Part shown: positions 1-5,939 of the stretch, piece after piece
Numbering within the stretch: position 1 is the stretch's first letter
Layout of the letters: each line of letters begins with the position of its first letter
DNA from: Gluconobacter wancherniae NBRC 103581
GTDB lineage: Bacteria > Pseudomonadota > Alphaproteobacteria > Acetobacterales > Acetobacteraceae
DNA length: 64,000 nucleotides
Direction of reading: 5' to 3'
NCBI RefSeq assembly: GCF_007988885.1
Contig: NZ_BJUZ01000001.1
Location: 1,178,001-1,242,000 of the forward strand
Position numbers and translations under genes: made by a program
The notes under the pieces: generated by a model
Database searches by the model: none
The model's input: the letters and a program-made list of their open reading frames with translations, nothing else
What the model was told of the DNA's origin: nothing

Positions 1-1218
1 CGCGAGACAGTCGCGTATTTCAGAACGCTCATAGAACCTCTGCCCACCGACAATCCGGTAAGGAAGGCCCATCATCATCAAGCGCTCTTCAAACGGCCGC
101 GTCTGAAATCCGGCGCGCATAAGGATGGCGATTTCAGAAAGGGCATGCCCGTTCCCACGGAGACGTTCGACCGCACTGGCAACAACGCGAGCTTCCTCAT
201 CCGAATCGCGAACGCCAATGATCTGGACCCGCTCTCCCTCAGCATCATCGCGGCCGGGACGAAGGGTTTTGCCCAAACGCCCATCGTTATGCGCGATAAG
301 TCCTGCGGCAGCGGCGAGGATCTGAACAGTAGAGCGGTAATTCCGCTCAAGGCGTACGACCTGAGCGCCGGGAAAATCTTTCTCAAAGCGAAGAATATTT
401 TCCACCTCAGCACCACGCCAGGAATAAATCGACTGATCGTCGTCTCCCACGCACGCGATGTTGGATGGACCACTTTCCCGCTTTGCCAAAAGCCTCAGCC
501 AGAGATACTGGATGGTGTTCGTATCCTGATATTCGTCCACCAGAATGTAGCGAAAAATACGGTGGTACTGAGCGAGTACATTGGGCTGTGTCCGTAAAAT
601 TTCGGTCACATGCAGCATCAGATCACCGAAATCACAGGTATTCAGCGCTGTAAGGCGTTCCTGATAAGCTCGGTAAATTGCAAGGGCGTGCCCATTTGCA
701 AAATCGCTGTCTTCGGCAGAAGTCACCCGGTCTGGCGTAAGGCCCCGGTCTTTCCAACGCTGAATGACACCCAACAACTGATTGGGGGGCCAGCGCTTGG
801 TGTCAATTCGCCACGGCTCCATCACCTGCTTGAGGAGGCGAAGCTGGTCATCCGTGTCGAGAATGGTGAATCCGCTATTGAGCCCTACATATTCGGCATG
901 CCGGCGCAGCATTCGCGCGCAGATGGCATGAAATGTGCCAAGCCACAGACCTTCCGCAGGCTCCCCCAGAATAGCCCCGACACGCTCACGCATTTCACGC
1001 GCAGCTTTATTGGTGAATGTCACCGCCAGTATCTGGCTCGGGTATGCGCGCCCCGTCAGCAGAAGATGGGCAAATCGCGTGGTCAGGACGCGTGTCTTTC
1101 CCGTTCCGGCTCCGGCAAGAATCAGAAGAGGGCCCTCGGTAATTTCGATGGCACGTCTCTGTTCCGGGTTGAGGCGGACGAGATAGTCGGGAGTGGGGAT
1201 CAGAGGGTCTTGCGGCAC
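1..1218 (-). CDS. uvrD: UvrD/PcrA-type DNA helicase, N-terminal part (gene runs off the left edge)
   Basis: Superfamily 1A 3'-5' DNA helicase, acting in nucleotide excision and mismatch repair and in clearing replication blocks. About 405 residues are visible. The reverse strand reads a Q-motif (LNPEQRRAI), Walker A (AGAGTGKT), motif Ia (TFTNKAA), motif II (VDEYQDTN), motif III (GDDDQSIYSWRGA) and motif IV (LERNYRS), all in the correct order. The C-terminal 2B and motif V/VI part lies outside the window. The start is taken at GTG 1218, because the reading frame has no ATG nearby; a slightly earlier start is possible. It is divergent from the RadC pair, with only 27 bases between the starts, so the two may share a promoter region. 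UvrD and PcrA cannot be separated from this fragment. Confidence 0.93.
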   Translation of the reverse strand, partial: MPQDPLIPTPDYLVRLNPEQRRAIEITEGPLLILAGAGTGKTRVLTTRFAHLLLTGRAYPSQILAVTFTNKAAREMRERVGAILGEPAEGLWLGTFHAICARMLRRHAEYVGLNSGFTILDTDDQLRLLKQVMEPWRIDTKRWPPNQLLGVIQRWKDRGLTPDRVTSAEDSDFANGHALAIYRAYQERLTALNTCDFGDLMLHVTEILRTQPNVLAQYHRIFRYILVDEYQDTNTIQYLWLRLLAKRESGPSNIACVGDDDQSIYSWRGAEVENILRFEKDFPGAQVVRLERNYRSTVQILAAAAGLIAHNDGRLGKTLRPGRDDAEGERVQIIGVRDSDEEARVVASAVERLRGNGHALSEIAILMRAGFQTRPFEERLMMMGLPYRIVGGQRFYERSEIRDCLA

Positions 1219-1245: not shown

Positions 1246-1935
1246 ATGGCCAACACGTATCCCCAGATTGATCTTTCACGCGGCACCGGACCGCAGGGGC
1301 ATCGTGCCCGAATGCGTAACCGCGTTCTGACAAATGGTGCGAATTCCCTCGCAGATTATGAGCTTCTGGAAATGCTTCTTTTTCTGGGAATTCCTCGCAA
1401 GGACACCAAGCCTCTCGCGAAGGGACTCATTTCACATTTTGGAAGTCTTATTGAGGTTTTTCGTGCCCCAACACAGAGCCTCCGCGCTGCAGGACTCAAC
1501 GATGATACGATCAGAGCCCTCCGTCTGCCCGGAGTTGCAGCCGAGCGCCTCGCCACAGCCGAGTTCCATACACGCCCGGTTCTGGGAAACTGGGAACAGC
1601 TTCTGGCATATCTGGATGCGGCGATGACAGGCGCAATAAATGGCCAGTTCCGCCTTCTGTACCTCGATAATCGCAATCGTCTTTTGGCAGATGAAGCTGC
1701 TCCGGAGCAAACCGAGCAGACCTCCACGAACCGTCAAATCGCCATCAGGGCGCTTGCCCTACACGCTACAGCTCTTATCGGCTTTCACGTGCGCCCGGGA
1801 AAAGCAGCAAAAACATTTTCACAGGATGCAAGGCTGCTGGATTTTGCCATGCGCCCACTTTCTGTAACCCTGCACGACGTCATGATCGTAGGTGAGGGCC
1901 CCCCTGTAAGCCTTAGGCAGGAGCATCTCCTGTGA
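1246..1935 (+). CDS. RadC-like protein with a degenerate JAMM motif
   Basis: 229 residues with the RadC layout: an N-terminal helix-hairpin-helix-like part (YELLEMLLFLGIPRKDTKPLAKGL) and a C-terminal JAB/MPN fold. The strand with ADEA, where RadC carries its conserved Glu, is present. The zinc motif HxHPSG...SxxD reads FHVRPGKAAKTFSQDARL, so the second zinc histidine is Arg and the PSGDPTPS loop is lost. Metal-dependent catalysis is therefore unlikely (inference). The gene overlaps the next radC gene by four bases (GTGA), so the two are translationally coupled. RadC has no proven repair role, and its function remains unclear in general. This copy could be a structural partner of the intact one. 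Confidence 0.85.
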   Translation: MANTYPQIDLSRGTGPQGHRARMRNRVLTNGANSLADYELLEMLLFLGIPRKDTKPLAKGLISHFGSLIEVFRAPTQSLRAAGLNDDTIRALRLPGVAAERLATAEFHTRPVLGNWEQLLAYLDAAMTGAINGQFRLLYLDNRNRLLADEAAPEQTEQTSTNRQIAIRALALHATALIGFHVRPGKAAKTFSQDARLLDFAMRPLSVTLHDVMIVGEGPPVSLRQEHLL

Positions 1936-2675
1936 GCACTGAACAGATAAATGATGGATTTGAGGACGGGATGCTGATTATCCATCCTCAACCAGAAACA
2001 CCCGCTAGCTCTGAGACACAAAGCCTCTCCCCCCAGAATGCCCTTTTGACCGGACGAGGACGTTATCTCGAAGATTCCATCCTCCTGAACCTTATGACAG
2101 CCCTCTTCACCGGGCGGATCAAAGAAGCAGAAGACCTTTCCAGAGTGCTGCACACCCGCTTTGGTTCACTGGCCGGAACCCTCACCGCTACGGACAGGGA
2201 ACTGGGCGGGATAAAAAATATGGGTGCTCATATGCTGCCCATGCTTCGCGTTCTTCAGGAGAGCGCATTGCGCTACAATCATGCGCGCCTCCCGCCTGAA
2301 GATATTCTGGGAAGCGAACGGCAGTTGCTGGATTATCTTACGGCACGCCTGTCACGCGAGAACATAGAGCAATTCCGCATTCTTTTCCTCGATGAGAAAA
2401 AAAGCCTGATCGCGGACGAAGCTCAAGCCCGCGGAACCGTCAATCACACCCCTGTCTATCCACGCGAAGTGGCCAGACGTGCCGTGGAGATCGGTGCGTC
2501 CGGCCTGGTTCTGGTGCACAATCATCCGAGTGGAGATCCAACACCATCCGAAGCTGACTTACAGATGACGCAGCAGGTGAGGGCTGCGCTTGAAGTCGTG
2601 GGGATAGAAGTTATCGATCATCTGATTATCGGAAACGGCTGCCATACAAGTTTCCGCCGCAACGGCTTTCTGTAA
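1932..2675 (+). CDS. radC: RadC family JAB/MPN-domain protein
   Basis: 247 residues. The C-terminal JAMM zinc-binding motif is intact (LVHNHPSGDPTPSEADLQMT), with the upstream conserved Glu in LIADEA. The N-terminal segment has RadC's helix-hairpin-helix character (FGSLAGTLTATDRELGGIKNMG). The first 35 residues are a poorly conserved extension rich in Ser, Pro and Gln. The start is GTG at 1932 and overlaps the stop of the upstream RadC-like gene, which implies coupling. The family is named for a historical radiation phenotype that was later attributed to another gene. A metal-dependent hydrolase activity is predicted from the fold but not established. Confidence 0.92.
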   Translation: MSTEQINDGFEDGMLIIHPQPETPASSETQSLSPQNALLTGRGRYLEDSILLNLMTALFTGRIKEAEDLSRVLHTRFGSLAGTLTATDRELGGIKNMGAHMLPMLRVLQESALRYNHARLPPEDILGSERQLLDYLTARLSRENIEQFRILFLDEKKSLIADEAQARGTVNHTPVYPREVARRAVEIGASGLVLVHNHPSGDPTPSEADLQMTQQVRAALEVVGIEVIDHLIIGNGCHTSFRRNGFL

Positions 2676-2691: not shown

Positions 2692-3807
2692 TCAGGCTGG
2701 CAGAAGGCTTTCGAGCGCCAGCTCTCCCGGCAAGGCGCCACGCGGAAACAGGGTATTCACATGCCCCATCTTTCGTCCTGGCCGCGCTTCGTTCTTGCCG
2801 TATAAATGCAAAGCCATACCATCTGCCGCAAGAATGGCCGGAACGCGTTCCATATCCTGCGGGCCAATCAGATTGTGCATGACAGCGTCCGAATGGCGGC
2901 GTGCATGTGGCAGAGGAAGACCCGCCACCGCACGGATATGCATTTCAAACTGGTCGATCAGGCAAGCATCCATCGTCCAGTGACCTGAATTATGCGGACG
3001 AGGGGCAATTTCGTTCACAAGCAAACTGCCATCAGCAGCATGGAACATCTCGACGCCCATGATGCCAACAAGCCCCAGTTCCGTAGCGATTTTGCTAGCG
3101 ATCTGTTGCGCTTCAACAGCAAGATCCGGCATCACCGGGGCAGGCGCTAAAGTGATATCAAGAATACCATCCCGATGACGGTTCTCGACCGTATCAAAGC
3201 AACGCACAGTGCCATCCATGCCACGCACAACCATGACACTCAGTTCACGCTCAAAATCGACCATGCGCTCGGCAACCAGCGGGTAAGGCAGATCCTGCAG
3301 GCCTGCCAGAGCAGCCTCATCTGCCACCCGGAACTGACCCTTGCCGTCGTATCCAAAACGGGTGGTTTTCAGGATGAGCGGAAAACCGATCTCCGTTAGT
3401 CTTGTGAGATCATCAGGTCCGGAAACTGCCATCCACGGCGCAAGTCGAATGCCAATCTTCGAAAGACGGGTTTTCTCGACGATCCGGTCCTGACTGATGC
3501 TCAGAATACTACCGGCTGGCCGAACGGGGCGGTGCTCAGCCAGCAACGCCAGCCCTTCTGCGCTGATATTCTCGAACTCGAACGTCACGACATCGCAGCG
3601 CGATGCGAAATCCCGCAGCGCTTCCGGGTCATCATAAGCCCCCACGGTTACCGAAGCCGAAACCTCAGAGGCTGGACCCGTTTCCGCAGGGTTGAGAATA
3701 TGAACGCGATATCCAAGTCTGGCTGCAGCCATGGCAGACATTCGCCCAAGCTGACCACCACCAACGATGCCAATCGTGCAACCGGGCAGAAAAACCTGCT
3801 GTGTCAT
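2692..3807 (-). CDS. purK: N5-carboxyaminoimidazole ribonucleotide synthase PurK
   Basis: ATP-grasp enzyme that makes N5-CAIR from AIR, bicarbonate and ATP in purine synthesis; PurE then rearranges the product. The N-terminus has the dinucleotide-like [11 protein letters not shown] motif. ATP-grasp elements follow ([55 protein letters not shown]). The frame opens further upstream, but the start at 3807 ([10 protein letters not shown]) fits the family and gives a four-base ATGA overlap with purE, the usual purEK arrangement. The length of 371 residues is normal. It converges with radC, whose stop is 16 bases away. Confidence 0.96.
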
Positions 3808-4328
3808 TCCGAAGGAGCGTCCGCAACGGCGGCCGTGCGAGTGGCCCGCCAAGCTTCCAGACGCGCGCCCAGACTTGAATCGGAAAGCGCAAGGATAGAA
3901 GCTGCCAACAGGCCTGCATTCGTTGCGCCAGCTTTACCGATAGCTAACGTGCCGACAGGAACACCCCCCGGCATCTGAACGATGGACAACAGACTGTCCT
4001 GACCACTAAGAGCACGGCTCTCCACAGGAACTCCAAGCACAGGCAGCGTCGTCCAGGCAGCGCACATTCCCGGAAGATGGGCCGCACCACCAGCACCAGC
4101 GATGATCACATGAAGACCACGTTTCTTGGCGGTTTTTGAATATTCGACAAGGCGATCAGGCGTGCGGTGCGCCGAAACAATGCGACGTTCATGCGCTATG
4201 CCCAGCTCATCCAGGACATCGCAGGCGTGTCTCATGGTCTCCCAGTCAGACTGGCTTCCCATGATGACGCCAACGCGCAGAGGCGATGTGTCCTGAAGGT
4301 TATCGGTCTCGGAAAGGATGTCGCTCAT
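3804..4328 (-). CDS. purE: N5-CAIR mutase PurE (class I)
   Basis: 174 residues. It converts N5-CAIR to CAIR. The substrate-binding signature [13 protein letters not shown] is near the N-terminus, followed by [11 protein letters not shown] with the catalytic His, and [23 protein letters not shown] and [14 protein letters not shown]. Presence of purK next door marks it as the bacterial PurK-dependent class. The stop overlaps the start of purK by four bases. The start directly abuts the stop of the small DUF465 gene upstream, so the three genes form one operon. Confidence 0.97.
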
Positions 4329-5459: not shown

Positions 5460-5939
5460 TCAAGCCGCCTGTGAAGAAGGCTCTGCTGTGGAGGACGTTA
5501 TATTCTGACCGCTACTGACAGTTCCCGTACCAATCGCAATCCGACGAGGCTTCGCAACCTCCGGCACAAGATGCTTCACCGAAATTGACAGCATACCGTT
5601 CATCAGATCAGCACGCTCGATTTCGATGTGCTCGGCCAGTGCAAAACGACGTTCAAATGCTCGGGTCGCGATGCCGCGGTGAAGCCAGTCACGATTCTTG
5701 CAGTTTTCTGGTACGCTGCCACGGATTACGAGCGTATTGTCTTCAAGTGTAACTTCGACATTCTCAGGACCAAATCCAGCAAGAGCCATGGTCAGAGCGT
5801 AGTCTGTATCACCCGTTTTTTCGATATTATAAGGGGGATAACTCGGAATTGCCTGTGCATTGGCGGCATTGCCAGCCATACGGGCAAGACGGTCAAAACC
5901 AATTGCGCTGCGAAAAAGCGGCGTAAAGTCGTATGTCAT
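5460..5939 (-). CDS. hsp20: Small heat shock protein, Hsp20/IbpA family
   Basis: 159 residues. An ATP-independent holdase that binds unfolding proteins. The N-terminus has the IbpA-like FTPLFRSAIGFDRL. The alpha-crystallin domain runs from about residue 35 (YPPYNIEKTGDTDYALTMALAGF) through LVIRGSVPE, and includes GIATRAFERRFAL and LMNGMLSI. The C-terminal I-x-I oligomerisation motif is present as RRIAIG, followed by a Ser/Thr-rich tail. It is monocistronic. Its expression should be heat-controlled at two levels: a sigma-32-type promoter and a ROSE-like leader covering its Shine-Dalgarno, both annotated separately. Confidence 0.96.
   Translation of the reverse strand: MTYDFTPLFRSAIGFDRLARMAGNAANAQAIPSYPPYNIEKTGDTDYALTMALAGFGPENVEVTLEDNTLVIRGSVPENCKNRDWLHRGIATRAFERRFALAEHIEIERADLMNGMLSISVKHLVPEVAKPRRIAIGTGTVSSGQNITSSTAEPSSQAA

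Follow-up and report, generated by a model that had tools for sequence, protein, structure and literature searches.

Reciprocal losses in a pair of RadC-type proteins of the Acetobacteraceae suggest a two-part enzyme

Two overlapping RadC-type genes of Gluconobacter wancherniae encode proteins that have each lost a different part of RadC. Ordinary RadC carries an N-terminal module and a JAMM zinc site on one chain, and the two proteins described here carry one each. Protein A keeps the N-terminal module and has lost the zinc site, and protein B keeps the zinc site and has lost the conserved residues of the module. Judging from sequence, these duplicated copies with complementary losses probably make up an obligate two-part enzyme, with A providing the N-terminal module and B the hydrolase. 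The pair lies in a window of 64,000 nucleotides, which is the whole stretch of DNA analyzed, and the features around it are as follows:

1 to 1218, minus strand: uvrD/pcrA-type helicase gene, divergent from A and running off the window
1246 to 1935, plus strand: RadC-A, 229 aa, ATG start; N-terminal module intact, JAMM zinc site lost
1297 to 1317, plus strand: GHRARMR motif of the N-terminal module of A, residues 18-24
1693 to 1695, plus strand: Glu150 of A, at the JAMM Glu column (family column 134)
1786 to 1827, plus strand: dead zinc-site segment of A, H181 V R183 ... F191 S Q D194
1932 to 1935, plus strand: 4-bp overlap of A and B; A stop TGA at 1933-1935, B start GTG at 1932
1932 to 2675, plus strand: RadC-B, 247 aa, GTG start; JAMM site intact, N-terminal module degenerate
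2418 to 2420, plus strand: Glu163 of B, at the JAMM Glu column
2517 to 2558, plus strand: intact zinc-site segment HNHPSGDPTPSEAD of B, with H196, H198, S206 and D209
2692 to 3852, minus strand: purK, convergent with B

The genome has no PF04002 matches other than A and B, which score 54.8 and 140.7 bits, respectively, against a cut-off of 22.1. The best named matches of A come from Gluconobacter. The coordinates agree with the first-pass annotation, which had described two RadC-type genes overlapping by four bases. This overlap (1932/1935) suggests that the translation of A and B is coupled in this genome. PF20582, the model of the N-terminal module, matches A at 30.8 bits (cut-off 27.1), in keeping with the earlier reading that A retains its N-terminal (HhH) region; B gave no match to this model at E 1. 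With TIGR00608 (cut-off 133.85), B scores above the cut-off (175.2) and A below it (99.5). The equivalog cut-off of 180 for NF000642 is reached by neither (A 103.2, B 174.2).

The zinc site consists of a Glu, an HxH and an SxxD. B reads EHHSD and is complete, with the HNHPSG...PSEAD motif intact as first described. A reads EHRFD and is incomplete, since the profile alignment places H, R, F and D at family columns 167, 169, 177 and 180. The Glu of the ADEA motif is kept in A, as had been noted. That A is without the zinc histidines is correct for the second His, which is replaced (R183), but the first (H181) is still present. The SxxD that A was said to retain did not hold up: in the family alignment the Ser column is Phe (FSQD) and the Asp alone aligns.

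RadC copies were compared using a 218-column profile built from 58 active copies (55 ordinary copies and three B copies let in by the selection rule). Separate profiles for the N-terminal domain (columns 1-92) and the JAMM domain (columns 93-218) were built from 54 ordinary copies only. A copy was classed as A if its N-terminal score was at least 75, HHSD was absent and its JAMM score was below 95. Class B required an N-terminal score of at most 55, HHSD and a JAMM score of at least 90, and the ordinary class required at least 95, HHSD and at least 150. Because HHSD is a sorting criterion, its presence in B and absence in A is a definition and not a finding. Seven of 323 copies fell outside these classes (fragments, a B copy with an internal stop and a fusion). 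After identical copies were removed, there were 81 A, 89 B and 92 ordinary sequences.

Across these distinct sequences, the median N-terminal score is 95 for A, 31 for B and 123 for ordinary RadC, and the median JAMM score is 59, 163 and 203, respectively. The 20 N-terminal columns that are at least 90% conserved in ordinary RadC are kept at 97% in A and 32% in B, and the 39 JAMM columns conserved in ordinary RadC are kept at 52% in A and 83% in B. GHRxRxR is present in all 81 A sequences and 88 of the 92 ordinary sequences, and in none of the 89 B sequences; the raw B frames were also searched and lack it (0/89). The first-pass annotation had confined the asymmetry to A. The zinc site of A is indeed dead, but B has in turn lost the conserved residues of the module, GHRxRxR and DTKP, which A keeps. 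Chance or a misreading of the window is ruled out, since the same reciprocal pattern recurs across genera.

The first-pass annotation had named a constant His-to-Arg change in A as a sign of a pseudoenzyme role. At column 169, the second zinc His, Arg is found in only 11 of the 81 A sequences, with His in 11, Ala in 11 and other residues in the remainder. Column 167, the first zinc His, is His in 23, Arg in 21 and Tyr in 13 of the 81, and both zinc histidines are retained in a single A sequence. Since column 169 is variable, the Arg found in the window is one of many states at this position, and the active-site face of A has drifted. The variability of these columns rules out both a fixed His-to-Arg switch and the idea that A has gained a new metal site. 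The JAMM Glu (column 134) is Glu in 70 of the 81. Columns lost in A include E117, Y147, E150, H167, N168, H169, S177 and T184, and the JAMM core is kept (Y106 95%, L124 95%, E134 86%, D200 89%, S211 95%). Three further JAMM-domain residues, W100, N128 and H199, are present in 61, 71 and 65 of the 81 A sequences compared to 2, 38 and 9 of the 89 B sequences, and they may face the N-terminal module.

The pair was sought across the Acetobacteraceae, as the first-pass annotation had suggested, and B was found in all 70 genomes with an A of the clade type. The pair, or a fusion of it, is present in 70 of 249 sampled genomes, eleven of which were left out of the dead-copy screen, and in 31 of 102 genera. 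The 70 are made up of the window's genome, 61 of 68 genomes in a first set and 8 of 160 in a second set (G017, G059, G080, G086, G102, G108, G159 and G236), where the other 152 were judged by PF04002 score alone, so that a B without an A would look ordinary. The 61 comprise 58 assigned by class together with G009 (A cut by contig ends), G013 (A recognized by profile) and G066 (fused). Further copies in G132:C102 and G043:C57 were left out of the count, and low or partial matches in G016, G064, G067, G078 and G237 were uncounted; the low-scoring copy of G237 is without both halves. RadC is widespread, with matches in 8 of 14 control genomes, and among the 249 Acetobacteraceae genomes a RadC match is absent in nine.

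A and B can also be absent together. G029 and G116 (genus g30) have neither, and G077 and G144 (genus g77) have no RadC match. In an rpoB tree, 24 genomes with the pair or fusion form one group with G029 (25 rows, SH-aLRT 98); G029 sits on a long branch inside this pair-bearing group and G077 lies outside it. The class rules also give an A-type copy in G058, where B is missing, and a B-type copy in G090, where A is missing; both copies lie outside the two clades described below. Genera g4 and g59 and genomes G012 and G017 still have another RadC copy, with an ordinary score.

Several loci depart from the usual pair. Half-way pairs, in which A is dead and the N-terminal module of B is only partly eroded (N-terminal scores 62-72, between the class limits), were seen in g59 and g4 (L254-L257). 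Four genomes of genus g97 (L083 and L263-L265) carry two tandem full-length RadC genes, both of which have GHR and HHSD; the split pair may have started from such an undivided state. The B gene of G126 (L174:2032-2889) has an internal TGA, and that of G046, from the same genus, is intact; this is either an error or a recent loss. The B gene of G017 is split into two frames. A head-to-head A/B pair (L027/L260) was found on a contig labelled Acidobacteria. That contig has the same length as one of G080, which is placed in the Acetobacteraceae, and its label is therefore probably wrong.

Phylogenetic trees place A and B in separate clades. In a tree of 104 rows, A forms one clade (96/94, 36 rows) and 38 of 39 B rows form another (100/99), which is sister to ordinary copies of other Acetobacteraceae (98/81). 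A tree of 68 rows, to which g4, g18, g59, g97 and both fusions were added, again shows one clade of A (100/98, 20 rows) and one of 19 of the 20 B rows (100/100); the fusion halves in this tree are long-branched or have few filled columns, so their exact placement is unsure. When 46 columns covering the GHR motif and active site were removed, A and B were still one clade each (SH-aLRT 99, nine rows each). Because the clades persist without the lost columns, a grouping of A merely by common loss is ruled out. Outside the clades are the A-type L217 of G058 and the B-type L213 of G090, which groups with the ordinary copy of G090 itself. L213 and L214 (G090) thus represent an independent RadC copy without the N-terminal module beside an ordinary copy. 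Since A and B are not sisters and B groups with ordinary copies, the trees do not support a single tandem duplication. A and B may stem from an older duplication that also has ordinary descendants.

The gene order in the window is a divergent uvrD/pcrA-type helicase gene, A, B and then a convergent purK-purE. On the fetched stretches, a helicase homologue was found at 75 of the 81 A loci, and 70 of the 83 B loci had a purK homologue; neither was found at any of the 55 ordinary named loci. Between the start codons listed for the uvrD/pcrA-type gene (minus strand) and A (plus strand) there are 27 bp (1219-1245). This gap, taken with the association of A with the helicase gene, hints at common control of the two genes or at a connection with DNA repair. 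In five genomes of genus g41 the two RadC genes are apart, A next to the helicase gene and B next to purK, which means that the locus was split between A and B and that each gene outlasted the break. In G013, the distance between A and B is about 109 kb. A gene for a HAD hydrolase lies on the opposite strand between A and B in six of eight A-B stretches, from six genera (L150, L151, L159, L185, L190 and L196), and the remaining two stretches gave no Pfam match. An opposite-strand gene in this position leaves no simple operon in those loci. An operon as the general cause of conservation is ruled out by the HAD interruption and the separation in g41.

Selection on each gene was estimated from dN/dS. 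For 13 Gluconobacter loci, the median was 0.070 for A and 0.050 for B. Domain values were calculated as domain dN over whole-gene dS, with the domains cut at fixed alignment columns. They were 0.043 for the N-terminal domain and 0.092 for the JAMM domain of A, and 0.111 and 0.018 for those of B, a bias opposite to that of A. Nine other groups gave medians of 0.05-0.33, some with few usable pairs or near-saturated dS. The domain bias was as in Gluconobacter in 10 of 10 groups for B and in 8 of 10 for A (not g85 and g101). The low dN/dS, the single clade and a partner found in all 70 genomes indicate that A is an old pseudoenzyme kept under purifying selection, in line with the role suggested in the first-pass annotation. 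The alternative raised there, that A would be randomly decayed in close relatives, is contradicted by the same dN/dS range and by GHRxRxR in every A sequence.

Rate correlation between A and B was also calculated. With rpoB as the sole control, the partial r was 0.70, and 0 of 2000 label shuffles were as high. In a comparison with RecO, the values given rpoB were 0.66 for A-B, 0.60 for A-RecO and 0.39 for B-RecO. Because the RecO control comes near the A-B value, the rate correlation adds little and is not counted as support.

AlphaFold2 models of the single chains are confident for each protein alone (pLDDT 89.4 for A and 86.8 for B), and both contain a helical region and a JAMM fold. The GHR motif of A lies in its first helix (16-30), to which a short helix (34-39) corresponds in B. 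By sequence, the helical region resembles the HhH regions of Hef, XPF and topoisomerase V. A and B are homologous to the RadC family by sequence (PF04002 and PF20582; TIGR00608), and both models match 2QLC (A E 4.8e-08, B E 6.4e-12), the only RadC structure entry found and one limited to the JAMM domain. The B model matches 5LDA at 7.9e-04 and the A model does so more weakly (1.0e-02). Proteasome entries are weak fold matches of both models, and BRCC36-KIAA0157 is a weak match of one of them.

Two natural fusions were found. G066 has a single 626-codon frame beside the helicase gene, whose parts score 58 bits (N-terminal module), 6 bits (dead JAMM remnant) and 134 bits (active JAMM domain). 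Among 30 genomes of relatives searched, this type of fusion was found in G066 only. G108 has a 523-codon frame with dead and active RadC halves, in which the A half is without GHR, and a separate pair is also present. The G066 fusion is the stronger evidence of the two.

The half missing from one protein is retained in the other, and this suggests that A and B must work together. We propose that RadC genes were duplicated within the Acetobacteraceae and that the two copies lost complementary parts. Copy A would have retained the N-terminal helical module (GHRxRxR, DxExxE and DTKPxA) and the JAMM fold and lost the zinc site, while the conserved module residues would have disappeared from copy B, which retained the JAMM zinc hydrolase. 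With one function lost from each copy after duplication, both would now be needed. The premise is that ordinary RadC self-associates, in which case its two functions need not share one chain. A and B would then most likely form a physical complex, either a heterodimer or a hetero-oligomer, and act in trans; A would position or recognize the substrate, presumably a DNA-related one, and B would hydrolyze it.

The first-pass annotation had drawn a comparison with Rpn11 and Rpn8, in which the dead partner shapes the active one. It was right that a zinc-less paralogue is kept with an active one and incomplete in placing the asymmetry in one partner alone. In a model of this kind, as with Rpn8 or CSN6, the dead JAMM domain of A would pair with the JAMM domain of B and shape or activate its site, and the loss of the module from B would be incidental. 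The conserved JAMM core and low dN/dS of A fit this model, and CSN5/CSN6 is a known heterodimer. Nevertheless, we consider it unlikely, because the N-terminal module is the best conserved part of A (97% compared to 52% of JAMM columns), the JAMM domain of Gluconobacter A evolves about twice as fast as its N-terminal domain, and the loss of the module from B is left unexplained. Since the active partner also lost conserved residues, A most likely supplies the missing part, beyond shaping B. Another possibility, to which we also give a rather low probability, is that the two have independent roles, with A using its module for a function of its own, perhaps with the helicase, and B acting as a lone JAMM-only hydrolase. 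This would suit the separate attachment of A to the uvrD-type gene and B to purK, their distance in g41 and G013, and a rate correlation that hardly exceeds the RecO control. It does not account for losses that are complementary instead of random, for the presence of B wherever clade A is found, for the joint absence in g30 or for the G066 fusion.

The remaining alternatives carry very little weight. A neutral ratchet, in which mutual dependence arose through drift (subfunctionalization) with no new property, would give the same anatomy, and the tandem g97 copies with GHR and HHSD and the partly eroded pairs in g4 and g59 could be its intermediates. Nothing decisive speaks against it. It is compatible with the two-part enzyme and differs from it only in why the arrangement was fixed; we regard it as very improbable. 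Least probable is that A is a duplicate in the course of decay and loss. The active site is gone and its loop varies in length, but GHRxRxR is invariant, the median dN/dS is 0.05-0.33 in ten groups and A is one clade in three trees. A as a pseudogene is ruled out by the dN/dS values and the invariant motif.

Pairs of active and inactive MPN (JAMM) proteins are known from eukaryotes: Rpn11-Rpn8, CSN5-CSN6 and BRCC36-KIAA0157. A and B resemble them in that a zinc-less JAMM paralogue is kept beside an active one, here in 70 of 249 genomes. They differ in being bacterial members of the RadC family with a presumed contact, and in that the active partner B has also lost a second module. There is an about even chance, on present comparisons, that acetic acid bacteria and several related genera have as their RadC an obligate, independently evolved hetero-oligomer of active and dead JAMM proteins, with the substrate-handling module on one chain and the zinc hydrolase on the other. 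If so, it would be a bacterial parallel to the eukaryotic pairs. It would also mean that RadC generally works as an oligomer, with an N-terminal module and a zinc hydrolase able to act in trans, and A and B would be natural separation-of-function proteins for the RadC family. Deleting either A or B would take away a single part of RadC.

No description of such a RadC pair was found in the open PMC literature, with preprints outside the scope of the search, in line with the earlier statement that a coupled bacterial RadC heterodimer is undescribed. In Francisella, RNA polymerase alpha1 and alpha2, paralogous subunits of a duplicated gene, are reported to form a heterodimer (PMC3294249). For A and B, a heterodimer is proposed and the losses are reciprocal. 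In RadC-like DinG, the RadC JAMM domain is fused to a helicase, and the sections available of that paper describe no inactive partner (PMC11981726). The DinG paper cites a work titled 'RadC, a misleading name?', and the Bacillus RadC is called of yet unknown function in another paper (PMC4474612). In Zymomonas, radC is among the genes listed as needed at a critical high temperature (PMC5571576). Elsewhere in the window (5460-5939, minus strand) is a small heat shock protein gene, whose best NCBIfam match is IbpA at 144 bits (cut-off 212).
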